Of a stretch of 64,000 nt of DNA, positions 28,932-38,957 are shown in pieces. A program made the translations under genes and the position numbers. Under the pieces are notes generated by a model that saw only the letters and a list, made by a program, of their open reading frames with translations, did no database searches and had not been told where the DNA came from. The stretch is from an uncultured Clostridia bacterium (GTDB lineage: Bacteria > Bacillota > Clostridia > UBA1381): contig CANQDD010000007.1 in the NCBI GenBank assembly GCA_947591315.1, positions 1-64,000 of the forward strand, given 5' to 3'. Each line of letters starts with the position of its first letter. The stretch's first letter is position 1.

Positions 28932-31900
28932 TTATTTTGTAACCGCTGCGCAGAGCGGCGTCATTTCACCATGCTTCCACACAAACAGCTTTATAGCATC
29001 AGCATCAGGCACATCGTCAAAACCGAATGTGAATACCTTTTTTTCACCGCTTTTAAGAATTACGTTTTGCTTGTCAATTCCTATAAGCCTGCCGTCATAG
29101 TCATACACTGCCGTTATAACGTCCGCGTCCGCGTCGTCGGCTGTGTTCGTCACATTTGCAAAAACCGCGGCGCTGCCGCCGTTTGTAACAACGCCCGTGA
29201 TTTCCGCGCTGACCTTGCCGATTGTGAACACGTTTTCGTTATACGCGTAGTCGATAACGGAAAATTCGAGCGTATCAGCGTCCATACCTGTTATGTCAAG
29301 CTTTATATCCGCGCTCTTTTCAGCCTTGATCGGCTCGGTAACTGTTTTACCCGACGCGTCGTGAGCCGCCGCGCCCATCAAGTATCGGTTGTCGCTCGCC
29401 GTGAACGACGCGTATTCCCTGCCGCCCTCCTCGTAAATTTCCGGATTTTGTATGTCGGGCGGCTCGGAGTCGATGTAGCATTTATACGTTCTTTCCTCGA
29501 CGCGGCTTTGATTACTGCCGTAGCCGTTCTTACCCGACACGGTAACATAATAATCGCCGTCGCTCACGTCGTCAAAATAAAGCCAAAGGGTTGCGTTGCC
29601 ACCGCCCTCCTCTTCGGTCTTGCGCGTCAGTCCAAAATCTATCTTATTTTCGCCGATCAAATCACCGTCAACGCCTTCAATTTTCACATTAGCGTCTGTC
29701 AGGGTGCGCCGCATACACATCAGCACGTAGTAATCATCCGCGTGAGCATCGGAAAGTCCGACATAATCTTCGCTTTCGTATTCGCTCCTGTCGGCTTCAT
29801 CCTGTGCGAAAAGATTTGTGCCGAGCATAAAATCCGCGTCGCCATACGACATCATTAAACCGCCGTCTCCGCCGCCGTCTCCGAAATACGGCGTAGCTAT
29901 GGCGTCGATCGCCGTCCAGTCGCCGTAAAAACCGGTGTACGGCATACTCACCCTTGCCGCCGCGCCGTTCGAGGACGAGAGAACGACAAAGCCATCAACC
30001 CAAAAGCCGTTTGTGAAAATTTCTTTATTCGCGGTTGTCCGCGCGCTGTTGAGTTTTATCTTAAGCGTTATTTCTTTTTCTCCGTTCGCGGGTACCGTCA
30101 CGCTCGAGGGATTTTCTGCGTCGGGCTCAAATTCGAGCTTAACGGAATCTGTAATAATATTTTTACCGTCACGCTCCTCATAATTATCCGTGAACGCGTA
30201 AATTTTTATATTGTCGTACGTTACAGGCTCGCCCGTCAGATTTTTTGCCGTGAACTTAAGCGTTATGTCATCTGTCAGATTATCCTTGAGGCTCAGCTTC
30301 GACTTGCCCGTATCGCCCTTTAATATCACGGGGATTTTCATCGCGTTTTTCAAATCCACCAGTCCCGCGCCCTGACGTCTTGGCGACTCGGGGAGCGTCT
30401 TTCCCTCGTCTTGGAACACAATATCAGCCGAGCTCATCAGCAGATTTTCCATAAGCGCGACCTTGTCCTCGTTAACAGCGGGATATTTCGCGTCAACAAA
30501 GCCGCTCATAAGCGCCATAGCTCCCGTTATTTGCGGCGCCGCCATCGATGTGCCGCTGTCGTTTCTGTACTCATCATCGTTTACCGACGAAAGTATATTG
30601 CTGCCGGGAGCGGTAATCTCCGGCTTAAGCTCGAGACTCGCCCCTGTACCCCAGTTTGTATAGTCAGCCATAACCGGCTCGTTGTCCTTATTATATATAA
30701 TTTCCCCGACATTCGCCTGAATTGCTTTGTTTTCCGCGTTCCGAAGCTTTTCTCCGACGGATTTGCTCACCATTACACCCGGTATTTCATCGCTTACCGT
30801 GCTTATTACGAAGAAATCTTCATTCTTCGATACGGCTATAAGACCTACGACGCCCATTTCAAGCAGTTTACTGCTTTTCGCGTCCGTCCCGTACGGAGCC
30901 ACCGCTATTTTACCCGCGATATCATCCATCGCTTGAAAATCGGCGAGCGTCTCGCCGCAAACGTACTCGTACGGCTTATCCGAAAATTTTTCAAAGAACG
31001 GCTTGCTGTAAGACGCATCCAGCTTTTCATCGCCGAGAGTAAACTTTCCGGAAAACACCCACACACGGTTCGGCTCAATCGACGCGACCGCCGTGGCTGA
31101 CGACAAGCCGGCAGGGAAAATATTGTAGCTGTAATCCGGATTGTCCGTTGTTTCCTCGTATCTGTTATCGTTACCCGCCGCGCATACAAACGCTATACCC
31201 GCGCGGCGCAAATTGTTCGAGGCAGTAATATACGGAGGATCTTCACCGTCAGATCCGCCGAGACTTGCATTTACCGCGCACACGCCCATTTTCGACGCAT
31301 CGTCCATCGCGGCTATGATTGTGCTGTTGTTCATAATGTCATCACTGTCTGCCACCTTCATCAGCACAAGCTGCGCTTCCGGCGCGACGCCCGAAAATGT
31401 CGTGTCCTCGATCACGCCGTTCTTACCCGCCGCTATACCGGCGACGTGAGTACCGTGAATATCCGCGGCGTACGTGTCCGCGTCACCTTCGCCGTAATCG
31501 TACGCGAACGGGATTTTTTCACTTTTGTACACCTGATTTGCCGATATATTGGCGTTCAGCTTGTTGTTTTCAATAAGCTCCTTTATCGAGCTCTTTGTAA
31601 ATTTCGGATTTTCTATGTCCGACGCGAAAAAATCATGCGACGTGTCAAATGCGCCGTCAATAATCGCCACCGCCTGTCCGCGCCCGTCATAGCCCGCATC
31701 GTACATTGCCTGCGCGTTTATCATCGCCGCGCCGTAGCCCGGCTCGCTTTCACCGTTTGACACGGGTTCCCGCGGAATATCGTACGTTTTGGATATGTAC
31801 ACATTTTTAACCCCGTCAACGGCTTTTATCTTTTCAATATCGCTTTCGCGCGCATCTATAGAAAATCCGTTGAAAACGCTCGTATAGGTAAAACCCGAAT

Positions 31901-32162
31901 TAACGTCGGCGTTTGTGCGTCTTTCTATATTGGACTTAACAGCCGACTGTGCTCTCAATATATGCGCCTCCGTATCCTTCGCCTCGCCCGTCTCCATATA
32001 GTCCGCCGCGCCCATGCGAACCGCGTTTTTTGTCGCGAGAAGCGGCGCGCCCTCGGTTTCGACGATAAGAGTAACCTTCTCGTCCTTCGCCGCCGCGGGT
32101 ATATATGCCGCGCCGATAAGCAACGCCGACGACAATACGATTGAAATCAGTTTTTTATACAT
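28932..32162 (-). CDS. Large secreted subtilase (S8, C5a-peptidase-like)
   Basis: A 1076-residue exported serine protease. Signal peptide ends near AAA-KD (residue 26), followed by an inhibitor-I9-like propeptide to about 130. The catalytic triad is D169 (VAIIDGAFD), H236 (HGTHVAG) and S539 (GTSMAAPQ), with oxyanion N331 in AAGNDN. A PA-type insertion lies at about 365-490, between the His and Ser blocks, as in cell-envelope and C5a-type peptidases. Fn3-like and other beta domains follow, then a C-terminal module (last about 85 residues, with AVYDYDGRLIG and KLFVWKHGEMTPLC) shared with two other proteins in the window. The ATG at 32162 starts the signal peptide and has AGGAAAGGTG upstream. 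No LPXTG or SLH anchor is seen. Substrate unknown. Confidence 0.92.
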   Translation of the reverse strand: MYKKLISIVLSSALLIGAAYIPAAAKDEKVTLIVETEGAPLLATKNAVRMGAADYMETGEAKDTEAHILRAQSAVKSNIERRTNADVNSGFTYTSVFNGFSIDARESDIEKIKAVDGVKNVYISKTYDIPREPVSNGESEPGYGAAMINAQAMYDAGYDGRGQAVAIIDGAFDTSHDFFASDIENPKFTKSSIKELIENNKLNANISANQVYKSEKIPFAYDYGEGDADTYAADIHGTHVAGIAAGKNGVIEDTTFSGVAPEAQLVLMKVADSDDIMNNSTIIAAMDDASKMGVCAVNASLGGSDGEDPPYITASNNLRRAGIAFVCAAGNDNRYEETTDNPDYSYNIFPAGLSSATAVASIEPNRVWVFSGKFTLGDEKLDASYSKPFFEKFSDKPYEYVCGETLADFQAMDDIAGKIAVAPYGTDAKSSKLLEMGVVGLIAVSKNEDFFVISTVSDEIPGVMVSKSVGEKLRNAENKAIQANVGEIIYNKDNEPVMADYTNWGTGASLELKPEITAPGSNILSSVNDDEYRNDSGTSMAAPQITGAMALMSGFVDAKYPAVNEDKVALMENLLMSSADIVFQDEGKTLPESPRRQGAGLVDLKNAMKIPVILKGDTGKSKLSLKDNLTDDITLKFTAKNLTGEPVTYDNIKIYAFTDNYEERDGKNIITDSVKLEFEPDAENPSSVTVPANGEKEITLKIKLNSARTTANKEIFTNGFWVDGFVVLSSSNGAAARVSMPYTGFYGDWTAIDAIATPYFGDGGGDGGLMMSYGDADFMLGTNLFAQDEADRSEYESEDYVGLSDAHADDYYVLMCMRRTLTDANVKIEGVDGDLIGENKIDFGLTRKTEEEGGGNATLWLYFDDVSDGDYYVTVSGKNGYGSNQSRVEERTYKCYIDSEPPDIQNPEIYEEGGREYASFTASDNRYLMGAAAHDASGKTVTEPIKAEKSADIKLDITGMDADTLEFSVIDYAYNENVFTIGKVSAEITGVVTNGGSAAVFANVTNTADDADADVITAVYDYDGRLIGIDKQNVILKSGEKKVFTFGFDDVPDADAIKLFVWKHGEMTPLCAAVTK

Positions 32163-32198
32163 TACATTCACCTTTCCTATCTGTCCATTTCGTGTTTT

Positions 32199-32227
32199 AT
32201 TATACAATAATTCAGTATAAAATGCAA
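32199..32227 (-). promoter_or_regulatory. Promoter of the subtilase gene
   Basis: TTGCAT, 17 bases, TATAAT on the minus strand. Confidence 0.75.
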
Positions 32228-33778: not shown

Positions 33779-33855
33779 GGCCCGGTAGTTCAGTTGGTTA
33801 GAACGCCAGCCTGTCACGCTGGAGGTCGTGAGTTCGAGCCTCATCCGGGTCGCCA
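33779..33855 (+). tRNA. tRNA-Asp (GTC)
   Basis: A 77-base cloverleaf. The acceptor stem GGCCCGG pairs with CCGGGTC (one G-U), the discriminator is G and CCA is encoded. The D arm GTTCAGTTGGTTAGAAC, the anticodon stem CCAGC/GCTGG with loop CTGTCAC (anticodon GTC) and the TpsiC loop GTTCGAG are intact. Confidence 0.97.
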
Positions 33856-33945: not shown

Positions 33946-36225
33946 TCATCGGCGAACCGGCTGCGCCGTTTCGGTATTATCGGTCAATTCAAAGCTGTTT
34001 TTAATAACATCGACCTGCTCAAACATTTCTCTGTACTCCACCGCGATTACAACGTCCTCCTCGTCATGGTCTGCCCATACGGGGTATTGCACATCTGTTG
34101 GAATTTCATAAATATAAGCGTAATTTTCACCGCGATACAGCAGCTCGCTTCCTCCGAGCATATTTAGCAGTTCGTCCGCCGCCTCCGGCGATACACGTTC
34201 CACTCTGCACAAGGTTCCCGCTCCGTATTTGTCATAGGTCGCTTTTTGAATAAAACTATAGCTTGTTCCATCATCAGACTTTTCCGTATTAACTATATAT
34301 TTACCGCTCCAGCTGTCGGGGATTTTAACCGAAAATCCTTCGCCGATAAACTGCTGCGCACCGTAAACTTCATCGTATGTATTGGTGATTATCGGCTTCA
34401 TTCCTTCGCCGGACCCGTTCGTCGGGAACGTCACCCAATCCGCCGCCGTAATTATTGCGAAAAATGCTTCATCGGTTCCTGTGGGATTTATCTCCCACTC
34501 GTCGGGACGAATACATTTCTCGCCGCGGAAGTTTTGTATATAGTTTACGCCCTCGAATATCCTCGTAAAATTTTCAATGTTGCGCCACGAGTTTGTAAAC
34601 AGCCTGTGCTTTGTTTCCAATTCCTGATTTTGCGTGGAAACAACAAGAATGACTTTACCGTTGTTGTCCGTAACGATGCGCTTTACCTTTTTACCGGGAT
34701 TTTCGCTTGTGTACTTATCCTGCTCTGCGGCAGTGCCGATTACGGCCTCCTCGCCTTTCGCGTAATAGCTTTCGGGGTCGGTCGGCTTTATGACGTTCAG
34801 CCTGAAATCCGCGAACGACGAATAATACTGCATAATTGCCATAAAGCTTTCTATCGGCGCGTACATCACGCCGTCCGCGATTACGGGACGGTTATTCGAC
34901 GCGTACATTTCACGTTCGCCGAATGTTATCGAGGTGAAAGAACCCTCATTAGCGTCAAAGCTGAAATATCTGAAATAGCTGCCCTCCGTTCCCGTAGGGA
35001 TTGGGGACATTTCCTCGTCCTCCGGCACCGTTACCGTCGCAACGCCGTTAGCGTAGGAAATATCGGTGTATCCGAAGCCGTTAAGCGTTTCGCGCAGCGG
35101 CAGATAGTAGTCGCCATTGTAAATAAACGGCTCGTGCGCGGTTTCAACCAGCCTGTCACCGTCGTAAATTTCGTATTTTATAACGTTTCCGTCATTATTG
35201 TTGCCGCCGCCGAGCACTCCGTCGGCGAGCACACCGCCCGCGAACACCGCCGCGGCAGTCATAACGACCGCGAGACACGCGGACAGTGCGCGTGTTGCTT
35301 TTCCTATTATCCTTTTATCCTTAATCATAGTAAATCTCCTCCTTAAAACCCTTTTACCGCCCGTCATTCCCGTTGTGAGTGGAACGGTGCGTTTGCCGTT
35401 TGAAAGGAGAGCGAGAATGGTATCAATGTAGCCTGCTTCCTCGCCGCGCGTCATGCCCGACGTCACAGCCGCGTCGCATGAGATTTCACATTCCGTGTTC
35501 ACGCGCGCCGCCATAAAATACACCGCCGGATTGAACCAGTGGACGCACTTCACAACGGCGGCAAGCCACTTGTAGAGAATGTCGCCGCGCCTTAAATGCG
35601 TCGTTTCGTGCAGCAGCACGTAATGAAGCTGCTCGTCGTTTAAGTCCGCGTCCGGCATCAAGAGTGTCGGACGGAACACACCGACTATCAGCGGCGACGC
35701 GATACCTCCCGAGCGGCGCACCGTCACGCGCCGTTTCGTGTACCGTGCAAGCTGCGGCAGGTCGGTGACGTATGAGGATTTCCTCATTCTGCGGCAGAAC
35801 AGCGCGTAACCCGTAAGCCTTGCCGCGAAAAGCGCGGCTGCCGTGATAACCCATACGTACGCGAGCGCGTTCAATACGTCGTCAGCCTTCGCGCCAAGCG
35901 GTTTGCCCGACGCGCGCACGGGTTCAGCTTTTACCGGCGCGGCTTCCGTTTGTTCCGCTGCCTGTACCTGCGCGGCGTTATCCGTCGCCGCCGCGTCGGT
36001 TTCGGTTACGGTTACGGGTGCGGGCTGTGCGGCTTCACGCACGCGGTGCGGCAGCGAAATACGTGCCGGACACAGCATGACGACCATTACCGCAAGCCAT
36101 ACGTAATAATTCCAGCCCGCCGAGAACCGCCGCCGTGTGAACGGGTGCGCGAGCGCGATTATAAGCGTCAGCGCGCCGCCAGCGAGCGAGGTCACAAGCG
36201 CGGCTTTGAATATTTCCGTCATCAT
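33946..36225 (-). CDS. BlaR1/MecR1-type M56 metalloprotease sensor with copper-amine-oxidase-N-like domain
   Basis: 759 residues. The N-terminal M56 membrane protease has helices near 9-28, 38-52, 121-142 and 222-240, zinc motif HETTH at 206-210 and the downstream ECEISCD glutamate (E247). After another helix (about 309-334) the extracellular part lacks a penicillin-binding domain. Instead it carries a copper amine oxidase N-like (stalk) domain (YNGDYYLPLRETLNGFGYTD, then VTVPEDE) and an uncharacterised region to the end. In the BlaR1 paradigm, ligand binding outside triggers cleavage of the BlaI-type repressor inside. It starts right after that repressor gene, so the two form one operon. The signal is unknown and is probably not a beta-lactam. 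Confidence 0.88.
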   Translation of the reverse strand: MMTEIFKAALVTSLAGGALTLIIALAHPFTRRRFSAGWNYYVWLAVMVVMLCPARISLPHRVREAAQPAPVTVTETDAAATDNAAQVQAAEQTEAAPVKAEPVRASGKPLGAKADDVLNALAYVWVITAAALFAARLTGYALFCRRMRKSSYVTDLPQLARYTKRRVTVRRSGGIASPLIVGVFRPTLLMPDADLNDEQLHYVLLHETTHLRRGDILYKWLAAVVKCVHWFNPAVYFMAARVNTECEISCDAAVTSGMTRGEEAGYIDTILALLSNGKRTVPLTTGMTGGKRVLRRRFTMIKDKRIIGKATRALSACLAVVMTAAAVFAGGVLADGVLGGGNNNDGNVIKYEIYDGDRLVETAHEPFIYNGDYYLPLRETLNGFGYTDISYANGVATVTVPEDEEMSPIPTGTEGSYFRYFSFDANEGSFTSITFGEREMYASNNRPVIADGVMYAPIESFMAIMQYYSSFADFRLNVIKPTDPESYYAKGEEAVIGTAAEQDKYTSENPGKKVKRIVTDNNGKVILVVSTQNQELETKHRLFTNSWRNIENFTRIFEGVNYIQNFRGEKCIRPDEWEINPTGTDEAFFAIITAADWVTFPTNGSGEGMKPIITNTYDEVYGAQQFIGEGFSVKIPDSWSGKYIVNTEKSDDGTSYSFIQKATYDKYGAGTLCRVERVSPEAADELLNMLGGSELLYRGENYAYIYEIPTDVQYPVWADHDEEDVVIAVEYREMFEQVDVIKNSFELTDNTETAQPVRR

Positions 36226-36228
36226 AGC

Positions 36229-36606
36229 CTATTCCTCCCTGTCGTCGAAAATAGCCCTCAATTCCTTTACATCCTCCTCGGAAAGCGCTTCCTCCTCGAA
36301 AAGCGACGCGGCAAGCTCTTTTGCCGAGCCGTCGTAGAGCGACCGTATCAGCGACCGCGTCTGCGCGCGGCGGTAGTCGCGTTTGGATATAAGCGGCGTG
36401 TAATAATACATGTTGCCGCGCTTTTCCGACGTGACCGCGCCCTTTTCGCAAAGCCGCGTGAGGAAGGTGGAAATCGTCGTGCGCTTCCAGCCCTTGCTTT
36501 CAACGGCTTTACCTATGTACTGCGTGTTTACGGCTTCTCCCGCTTTCCACAGAACCTTCATTATCTCCAGTTCCGCTTCTCCTATACTGATATTTCCTGA
36601 CGTCAT
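36229..36606 (-). CDS. BlaI/MecI/CopY-family transcriptional repressor
   Basis: A 125-residue repressor. The N-terminal winged helix (ISIGEAELEIMKVLWKAGEA, RTTISTFLTRLCEKG, YYYTPLISKRDY) is classic for BlaI/MecI, and the C-terminal helical dimerisation region carries the segment cleaved in relatives. It overlaps its own operator logic: two TACA-N4-TGTA-like boxes lie at its promoter, and a second promoter with the same boxes lies in front of the membrane protein gene at 38.6 kb. The protease gene follows after a few bases. Expected to repress both units until the sensor is triggered. Confidence 0.92.
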   Translation of the reverse strand: MTSGNISIGEAELEIMKVLWKAGEAVNTQYIGKAVESKGWKRTTISTFLTRLCEKGAVTSEKRGNMYYYTPLISKRDYRRAQTRSLIRSLYDGSAKELAASLFEEEALSEEDVKELRAIFDDREE

Positions 36607-36623
36607 AAGAAATACCCACCTTT

Positions 36624-36673
36624 CTACACGTGTAGTCTACTGTTATTCTACACTGGTAGTCGGGATTTGTCAA
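36624..36673 (-). promoter_or_regulatory. BlaI-type operator and promoter of the sensor operon
   Basis: On the minus strand TTGACA, 17 bases, TAGAAT. Box CTACCAGTGTAG (36648-36659) overlaps the -10 and a perfect palindrome CTACACGTGTAG (36624-36635) lies 24 bases further on, in the leader. Confidence 0.85.
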
Positions 36674-36730
36674 GGGGTTTGGGGAAATTTTTTTGAAATA
36701 AAAAGACCTCGTGGGGGTGCGACTGCGAAA

Positions 36731-37012
36731 GGCCCCCTTGTCAAAGGGGGCTGTCGGCAGAGCCGACTGGGGGATTCCTTTTTGTTGTTATAATGAATCC
36801 CTCCACCGCCTTCAGCGGTCCCCCTCCCTTTGACAAGGGAGGCTAGCGGGCGAACACGGTTCGCCCCTACGTAATCGGGCTGTCGAGGGCGCCAGCCCCT
36901 ACGGCGCATGAATTTCAAATTACGGGTGTAGGGGACGGCGTTTTGCTACGGCATACGAGCATAGCTCTATGCCTACAACACATATGTGTTGTTCACCTCG
37001 ACGTCCCGCACC
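36731..37012. repeat. Mosaic palindromic repeat region
   Basis: Fills most of the 419-base gap between the repressor and the DUF6056-like gene. A composite inverted repeat (36731-36843, both arms containing CCCTTGTCAAAGGG) is followed by hairpin modules ending in CCCCTACG, a block ending GGTGTAGGGGACGGCG, and GACGTCCCGCACCTAC. Between the last two lies an extra block of about 54 bases (36941-36995) with an 18-base perfect palindrome ACAACACATATGTGTTGT (36975-36992) that is absent from the related copy at 38.9 kb. Confidence 0.7.
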
Positions 37013-37025
37013 TACGTATAACACC

Positions 37026-38621
37026 CTATTGAACAAATTCAAGCGTGTCACATTCGGGGATATATGTCATCTCTGTGCCGATTTTATCCGCCAACTCCCT
37101 AATCGGTACGCACACCTCGCCGCCAATGTTAAAGGTCTTTGAAAAATCCTCGCGGCTGACTTTACCCTCGCAGTTAAATATCCTTACCGCCCGTTCAAGC
37201 GGCACATACGTCACATCACAGGCGCAGGAGTGTATGCAAGGTAAATCCGACGGTGCGCCGTTTATGATAACGTCGGTGTTCCATGTTAAAATCATGTTGT
37301 CGTGAAAACAAGCCGGCACGCTTATATATGTAAAGCGCGGAGGAAGTATGGACTTGTCGCTGTATATTCTCCCGCGCTCTCCGACTTCGGCATGATACGT
37401 CTGCGCCGCGCCGTGTAAATCATTGTACGCCAAAGAGAAATTTGTATTCGGCGCCTGAAAAAACAGCGATACTGCAAACATCACCGCGCCCGCCGCGCAT
37501 ATTGCCCGCCTTAACCCTTTTCGGGGTTTAATATCTTTTAATCTGCCTGATATGTAACCTACGGCATAAAATGAGTTCCCGAACATAAAAAATATGTACG
37601 CGAGGTAAAACAGATTTTTTATCCGCGGTATATTACAGTCGTTCATGGCGTAAAGCGGCGGAACGTACAGCGAGGCAAGCAGTCCGAACGACACGGCGAG
37701 AACGATAATCGGATTGAGGCGGTATGTTCTTTGTCCGTCACGCGAAAAAACAAAAGCGGCGGCGCACAGTATAAGCGCCCCTATAATTGCCGCGTTGGTA
37801 TAGCGTACAATGTCCGAAGCAGCATGACACAGCGCGGATATTACCGCGCCCAGCGGCGGCAGAGTATCAAACACGGCTTGTCGTACGGCGTTGCCGGGCG
37901 CCGCCATACTGATTATAAGTCCTGCGGCGGCGAAAAGCGTTATAAGCGCGTTCTTTACAACGGCTTGCGCCGTATCGCGCGAAAGCGCCCTGTAAGCGGT
38001 GATAACAAACGACGTAAGGCAGTACGTCAGCGAGGTTAAATAATTGCCGCCCGTCACAACAAAGGCAAGTAAGCATTGCGCGGCAACGGTTATTGTTTTC
38101 GTATTTTTATTTGTGATTTGCGTTATGACCGCGAGAACCGACAGGCACCAAAAAATAATATAATGCACGCCGCCGTTCCACCAGAATATGCCCTCCGCAG
38201 CCGACGGGAGGAATTGTACCGATAAAAGCGCGGTCACGCTGCCGATAAGTATTTTCCCCGAGCGGCTCATACCGCGCGCGGAATTTAAGGCAAAAAATAT
38301 CGGAACAACAACCGCAACGAGCATCACAAACGGCGTAATTATATAAAGCCTGCCGTCAAAAACGCCCGGCTGCAGCGAAAACAGAATAACCGAGCTGTAC
38401 GTACCCTGCCAGTTCATATATGTATATCTTAAATTTTCCGCCAGCGCTTTGATCACGCCCAAAAACCCCGTCCCCGTAAGCAGCGCGTAATGCACGGGTG
38501 CGCCGTATCCGAAATCGTCTGCCGACGGAGACGTGTACGGCGCGAGCATTATAAGCGGAATCAGGGAGAGTAAAAATAACGCCGCCGTTATCGCAGCCGC
38601 ATATTTGATAGCTTTTCTCAT
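37026..38621 (-). CDS. DUF6056-like polytopic membrane protein with extracellular copper-amine-oxidase-N-like tail
   Basis: 531 residues. About eleven helices, with an early SADDFGYG motif, MNWQGTYSSVI and WNGGVHYI that recall DUF6056 and GT-C-type glycosyltransferase-like proteins (acidic residues in the first external loop). The last about 85 residues form a copper amine oxidase N-like domain (VIINGAPSDLPC, TYVPLERAVRIF, VCVPIRELADKIGTEMTYIP, TLEFVQ). The ATG at 38621 has GAGAGG upstream. The promoter carries two BlaI boxes spaced exactly as at the neighbouring blaI-type gene, so it is the apparent target of that circuit. Enzymatic function is unproven; a lipid-linked sugar transferase acting on the envelope is one possibility. 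Confidence 0.75.
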   Translation of the reverse strand: MRKAIKYAAAITAALFLLSLIPLIMLAPYTSPSADDFGYGAPVHYALLTGTGFLGVIKALAENLRYTYMNWQGTYSSVILFSLQPGVFDGRLYIITPFVMLVAVVVPIFFALNSARGMSRSGKILIGSVTALLSVQFLPSAAEGIFWWNGGVHYIIFWCLSVLAVITQITNKNTKTITVAAQCLLAFVVTGGNYLTSLTYCLTSFVITAYRALSRDTAQAVVKNALITLFAAAGLIISMAAPGNAVRQAVFDTLPPLGAVISALCHAASDIVRYTNAAIIGALILCAAAFVFSRDGQRTYRLNPIIVLAVSFGLLASLYVPPLYAMNDCNIPRIKNLFYLAYIFFMFGNSFYAVGYISGRLKDIKPRKGLRRAICAAGAVMFAVSLFFQAPNTNFSLAYNDLHGAAQTYHAEVGERGRIYSDKSILPPRFTYISVPACFHDNMILTWNTDVIINGAPSDLPCIHSCACDVTYVPLERAVRIFNCEGKVSREDFSKTFNIGGEVCVPIRELADKIGTEMTYIPECDTLEFVQ

Positions 38622-38646
38622 GATAGAACCTCTCATTTCTGTAATT

Positions 38647-38696
38647 CTACACGTGTAGTCGGATATCATTCTACATCTGTAGTCGTATTTTGTCAA
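38647..38696 (-). promoter_or_regulatory. BlaI-type operator and promoter of the DUF6056-like gene
   Basis: TTGACA, 17 bases, TAGAAT on the minus strand, with boxes CTACAGATGTAG (38671-38682, over the -10) and CTACACGTGTAG (38647-38658). The 24-base box spacing and the downstream perfect box are identical to the 36.6 kb site, and flanks upstream of the -35 are also similar. Confidence 0.85.
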
Positions 38697-38727: not shown

Positions 38728-38957
38728 GACCCCCTCTATGAGGGGGTCGAAATCTTTGATTTCGGGGGGTGTATAATTCACAAACAACACCCCCCTAAAC
38801 TTGCAAGCAAGTTTAGACCCCCTCGGAGAGGGGGTCTTATACTGGCGGCCAATGACCGCCCCTACGTAAACGGGCTGTCGAGGGCGCCAGCCCCTACGGT
38901 GCATGAATTTCAAATTACGGGTGTAGGGGACGGCGCCCTCGACGTCCCGCACCTACA
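38728..38957. repeat. Mosaic palindromic repeat region, second copy
   Basis: Fills the gap between the BlaI-boxed promoter and uxuA. Two GACCCCCTC...GAGGGGGTC hairpins (from 38728 and ending 38836) enclose two further hairpins; CCCCTACG modules and the GTGTAGGGGACGGCG ... GACGTCCCGCACCTAC block follow, closely matching 36.85-37.01 kb. Confidence 0.7.

Follow-up and report, generated by a model that had tools for sequence, protein, structure and literature searches.

In the staphylococcal BlaI-BlaR1 and MecI-MecR1 systems, operators take the form TACA-N2-TGTA and the repressor is removed by cleavage. To our knowledge, few signals or outputs have been described for M56 sensors that lack a penicillin-binding domain. 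For BlaI_0696 of Clostridium thermocellum, DNA affinity purification sequencing (DAP-seq) gave peaks upstream of clo1313_0680, clo1313_0696 and clo1313_2238, with two motif matches each; clo1313_0696 is the repressor's own operon and includes two BlaR1 genes, and the section on this regulon takes it as a beta-lactam response with the hypothetical Clo1313_2238 as suspected effector (PMC8457756). GT-C glycosyltransferases of Gram-positive envelopes have been reviewed, with YfhO and GtlB placed in multi-component transmembrane glycosylation systems (PMC8035078). Here we describe a BlaI/M56 locus in 64,000 nucleotides of an uncultured Clostridia bacterium (GCA_947591315.1, contig CANQDD010000007.1, positions 1 to 64,000; "the window" below). 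We consider it likely that this locus is a BlaI/M56 switch acting on two promoters and derepressing a GT-C target whose promoter was copied from that of the repressor gene, blaI.

Promoters and putative operators

On the minus strand, a gene for a DUF6056-like membrane protein, called the target below, is followed by the BlaI-type repressor gene and then by the gene for the M56 sensor-protease. Two minus-strand promoters, before blaI (36624–36673) and before the target gene (38647–38696), follow one plan: TTGACA-N17-TAGAAT with a dyad across the -10, followed 24 bp later by a perfect CTACACGTGTAG. A preliminary description of the stretch had reported this plan, which stands, along with a TACA/TGTA box over both -10 elements, which does not. 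The dyad over the -10 is perfect only at the target promoter; at the repressor's own promoter, box 2 is perfect and box 1, CTACCAGTGTAG, has TACC as its left half. The paired boxes are putative operators.

Counts of the boxes alone carry little. With up to two mismatches CTACACGTGTAG occurs four times in the window against 1.73 expected, and 9 of 100 shuffles reach four, which is weak evidence against chance. The shorter box CTACANNTGTAG has three sites in the assembly of the window's own genome (G000; 2.34 Mb, 85% complete), every one of them in these two promoters. Its reversed control has five sites on each strand; taken by itself, then, the short box is no rarer than expected by chance, and the weight rests on the full two-box promoter pattern.

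Searched with up to three mismatches, the full pattern matched the window's own genome only before blaI and the target gene, with no third promoter of this type at that threshold. It gave 16 matches in 12 of 70 genomes of the family and 17 in 13 of the 95 genomes of the order, which contain those 70; the reversed control gave 0. Behind the 17 promoters lie blaI (12), the DUF6056-like gene (3; G000, G008 and G011) and a gene for a secreted protein with SLH and penicillin-binding-protein-like domains (2; G018 and G033), identified by Pfam on the G018 protein. These last two genes are at L092:3307-5028 and L093:4329-5677, and their presence behind the two-box promoter implies that targets differ between genera. 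BlaI-type boxes before DUF6056-like genes, noted earlier in the window alone, are thereby found in three genomes. There the boxes are kept despite changed spacer bases, and box 2 is the same in both promoters of each genome, so that the two operators of one genome seem to change together.

Box 2 has CG at its centre in the two promoters of the window's own genome; in G008 and in G011 both promoters have AT there (L061, L063). Altered repressor specificity as the reason for this change was set aside: G000, G009, G011 and G005 share one and the same repressor helix region, WKRTTISTFLTRL. That of G008 differs by a single T to A, and G011 has two changes just ahead of the region.

Origin of the target promoter

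Relatives of the target with 76–85% identity lie next to a divergent HTH_3 (XRE-type) gene in three genomes: G037, G043 and G011, where the relative is a second copy. In G011 the BlaI-side copy and the XRE-side copy are sisters (support 100/99; 91% nucleotide identity), with the last 25 bases through the start codon identical and the promoters different. These copies lie at L064:9661-11262 and L063:1286-2881, one with a BlaI-type promoter and one beside the XRE-type regulator.

Likeness between target and blaI promoters extends beyond the boxes. In G011, 73 of 85 aligned positions match between the two, over a stretch that opens 33 bases before the -35 and closes with box 2; agreement is 65/76 in G000 and 84/101 in G008. 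Alignment scores of the three target promoters run from 65 to 148 against the five blaI promoters of the group (G000, G005, G008, G009 and G011) and from 43 to 61 against five others of the type (G001, G043, two in G018, and G033), a comparison that includes G001 from the same genus as the window genome. The target promoter thus has the look of a copied blaI promoter, placed before a gene that elsewhere stands beside an XRE regulator, and these alignments support a copy directly upstream of the target's existing leader, bringing the gene under BlaI control. Neither this likeness beyond the boxes nor the predicted GT-C fold was part of the preliminary description. The same gene and leader under XRE-side and BlaI-side promoters, both in G011, make a readable case of regulon growth.

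In G005 a mannonate dehydratase gene is followed by blaI with no target gene between. A 79-bp direct repeat flanks the target in the window, and one similar copy lies in the intergenic stretch of G005. The arrangement fits an arriving gene that gained a copied blaI promoter, whether or not the gene was lost again in G005, and either direction is possible. The sister copies in G011 could also be the product of conversion.

The predicted GT-C target

The target scores 24.1 bits against DUF6056 (PF19528), below the gathering score of 27; a Flavonifractor relative passes at 33.5 bits, and DUF6056 matches 22 of the 26 sequences of the target family at E 0.05. The predicted structure of the target has the GT-C glycosyltransferase fold, at 4–12% identity to solved GT-C chains and with weak Foldseek E-values. 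Six residues (E143, W147, N149, N193, R247 and R333) are invariant in the 26 sequences, which share 20–89% identity with the window protein, and D35/D36, directly after helix 2-25, are at least 90% conserved among them. These two aspartates are candidates for the acidic residue that GT-C enzymes carry in the first extracytoplasmic loop. The tail (about 445–531) is Cu_amine_oxidN1-like with a CxxxC. The target is probably a GT-C glycosyltransferase adding sugars to the cell envelope. The six closest loci (76–89% identity) are from metagenome-assembled uncultured Clostridia.

The repressor and the sensor-protease

Penicillinase_R (PF03965) spans the whole repressor (109.2 bits against a cut-off of 22.6), and MecI aligns without gaps over 6–121. 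The protein is MecI/BlaI-like and a member of the BlaI/MecI family. Its residues 101-102, at the position of the MecI cut site, are S-L. A CopY-like copper circuit was rejected. The repressor shares a superfamily with the CopY/TcrY copper repressors (E 4e-24) but falls below their curated cut-off (85.3 against 121.95 bits). CopY/TcrY proteins carry a C-terminal Cys metal site, whereas the only cysteine here is C53 and such a site is therefore absent.

The sensor has four hydrophobic stretches, HETTH at 206–210 and a Pfam M56 match of 4e-53. Its ectodomain comprises a Cu_amine_oxidN1-like module (about 350–479), a low-confidence part (480–620) and a Mog1/PsbP-like domain (about 622–751); the fold comparison barely tests residues 296–620. 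No transpeptidase was present among Pfam matches up to E 1, and the motif scan of the sensor found no KTG-like triad and a sole SxxK at 275, ahead of the last hydrophobic stretch. The blaR1_generic score is 98.9 against a cut-off of 400 bits. The membrane-protease part of the sensor resembles BlaR1, but the penicillin-binding domain that defines BlaR1/MecR1 is missing, which supports the earlier view of a BlaI/M56 pair with such a sensor.

A motif rule picked 37 M56 open reading frames (ORFs) from the loci examined, of which 24 were aligned and scanned and 13 left out unscanned, several of the latter with visibly different ectodomains. None of the 24 matched a transpeptidase family at E 0.05, and it is common for M56 sensors of these Clostridia to lack a penicillin-binding domain. 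C-terminal modules vary among close orthologues (L026, L027, L028; 33946-33990 in the window): the window sensor has the Mog1/PsbP-like domain only, that of G011 adds a further end domain, and those of G008 and G009 have that end domain only. DUF4829 is matched by 4/24 aligned sensors. Several sensors of the family and order (L042, L045, L047, L048, L050, L052) have an ectodomain that is LytR-CpsA-Psr-like by eye, another possible envelope link.

The shared outer domain

Sensor and target had both been described as carrying a copper-amine-oxidase-N-like domain. Neither reaches the Pfam gathering score: the sensor has 17.9 bits against 24.2 for Cu_amine_oxidN1 (PF07833), the window target has no Pfam match to it, and at E 0.05 it is matched by 2/26 sequences of the target family, the better of them at 0.017. 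Profiles of the two modules align with Prob 67–80% over 36–40 columns in local mode and 16–40% in global mode, so the likeness may be real. As evidence, the shared domain is weakly supported, and it is uninformative because the window's own genome holds 38 Cu_amine_oxidN1 matches, 37 above the cut-off and some in one gene. Among the aligned M56 sensors, 21/24 match it at E 0.05 (best 9.2e-10), a share biased by the 13 omitted sensors and falling to 21/37 if none of those matches.

The neighbourhood of target genes was scanned for BlaI and M56 in ORFs of at least 60 aa, up to 8 kb a side and less at contig ends (L112 covers only 8.3 kb), in 40 loci that include second copies of the same places; six had matches, and both families lay near the target gene in 3/33 named loci (L106, L107, L110). 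Targets with the same tail in Flavonifractor and in XRE contexts had no BlaI or M56 within the scanned stretch. The earlier suggestion that sensor and output recognise the same ligand or each other is set back by these relatives, by the number of matches in the genome and by the spread of the domain among sensors. What stands of the self-contained envelope-sensing system is the BlaI/M56 pair with its second promoter, not a ligand common to sensor and target.

Proposed circuit and alternatives

A circuit from an envelope signal through the M56 protease and loss of BlaI to envelope glycosylation is likely. As the operators suggest, the BlaI-like repressor would bind the paired dyads at its own and the DUF6056-like promoters and block both. 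By analogy with BlaR1, an extracellular envelope signal would act on the sensor ectodomain, where Cu_amine_oxidN1-like and Mog1/PsbP-like modules appear to replace the penicillin-binding domain, and the cytoplasmic zinc protease would then be activated, leading to loss of BlaI. The derepressed enzyme, judging from its predicted fold, would transfer sugar from a carrier lipid to a polymer of the envelope, and its extracytoplasmic tail might help to keep the acceptor in place.

The target might belong to the BlaI regulon with its GT-C fold serving as a membrane scaffold or binding protein, the tail holding an envelope component. The low identity to solved GT-C chains and the weak Foldseek E-values would suit this, but the invariant and highly conserved residues are what an active site leads one to expect, and we consider it unlikely. 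Less likely again is that the second promoter arose incidentally in an intergenic region rich in repeats, where a duplicate of the blaI promoter would drive the gene although BlaI control was not selected for. The direct repeat around the target and the G005 arrangement speak for such an origin; against it, boxes are retained in three genomes though spacers vary, with box 2 identical across the two promoters of each.

Two further readings turn on the outer modules. One is a closed envelope loop, in which the GT-C enzyme, with the help of its related outer module, would decorate the polymer monitored by the sensor ectodomain, the protease switch titrating glycosylation, with the regulon built by copying the repressor promoter and the operators kept identical by conversion or selection; we hold this to be more doubtful still. 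The least probable is that sensor ectodomain and target tail recognise one envelope polymer, the product of the enzyme thereby acting back on the expression of its gene. Cu_amine_oxidN1-like modules occur in both proteins, and the genes for the two are neighbours in four genomes. Yet the domain is abundant in the genome, most of the sensors that match it are without a known target, and Flavonifractor and XRE-context targets keep the tail. The two-promoter switch with a copied promoter and an enzymatic output is the reading we prefer.

Features of the locus and its surroundings

Beyond the sensor gene, on the opposite strand, is a tRNA-Asp (33779–33855). A gene judged subtilase-like by eye (28932–32207) lies near the locus, and a similar one, also by eye, at L060:1-3087 lies some kilobases away from a further BlaI/M56 locus in this genome.

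Table 1 Positions of the genes, promoter elements and repeats of the BlaI/M56 locus in the window.
Feature	Position	Strand	Basis
BlaR1-like M56 sensor-protease, 759 aa	33946..36225	-	profile search, motif scan, predicted structure
BlaI/MecI-family repressor, 125 aa	36229..36606	-	Penicillinase_R 1.9e-31; MecI 4.7e-15; BlaI 1e-12
DUF6056-like membrane protein, 531 aa, predicted GT-C glycosyltransferase	37026..38621	-	profile search, alignment, predicted fold
-35 TTGACA / -10 TAGAAT of blaI	36645..36673	-	sequence
blaI box 1, CTACCAGTGTAG, overlapping -10	36648..36659		sequence
blaI box 2, CTACACGTGTAG	36624..36635		sequence
-35 TTGACA / -10 TAGAAT of target gene	38668..38696	-	sequence
Target box 1, CTACAGATGTAG (minus-strand reading), overlapping -10	38671..38682		sequence
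Target box 2, CTACACGTGTAG	38647..38658		sequence
79-bp repeat copy between target gene and blaI	36862..36940		97.5% identity to 38857-38935, same orientation
79-bp repeat copy upstream of target gene	38857..38935		97.5% identity to 36862-36940

Comparison with known systems

The preliminary description knew of no account of such a system. Among the matches listed from the open-licence literature, no title or abstract concerned a BlaI-controlled GT-C enzyme, and that literature yielded no paper on DUF6056 and nothing on this subject for Cu_amine_oxidN1. A BlaI regulon with paired boxes does have a published precedent in BlaI_0696, the nearest described regulon, which is likewise small and includes its own promoter; section 25 of that paper names no GT-C enzyme (PMC8457756). 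The predicted many-helix fold of the target resembles that of enzymes of the YfhO and GtlB type, and for some of these an extracellular domain has been proposed to bind the polymer that serves as acceptor (PMC8035078). The window target differs in being DUF6056-like in sequence and under a BlaI-type promoter, and no GtrA-type gene was found next to it.

With the staphylococcal BlaI-BlaR1 and MecI-MecR1 systems the locus shares the repressor family, an M56 membrane protease with HEXXH, a conserved sensor loop that aligns with BlaR1 281-284, and TACA-N2-TGTA dyads over the promoter. By this analogy it should work like BlaI-BlaR1 in mechanism. It differs in a sensor without a penicillin-binding domain and in a target that is a predicted GT-C enzyme, where theirs is a beta-lactamase or PBP2a. 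The locus names, for an M56 sensor of this kind, an output with a testable activity, and that predicted output suggests that this kind of protease switch also serves envelope upkeep outside beta-lactam resistance.
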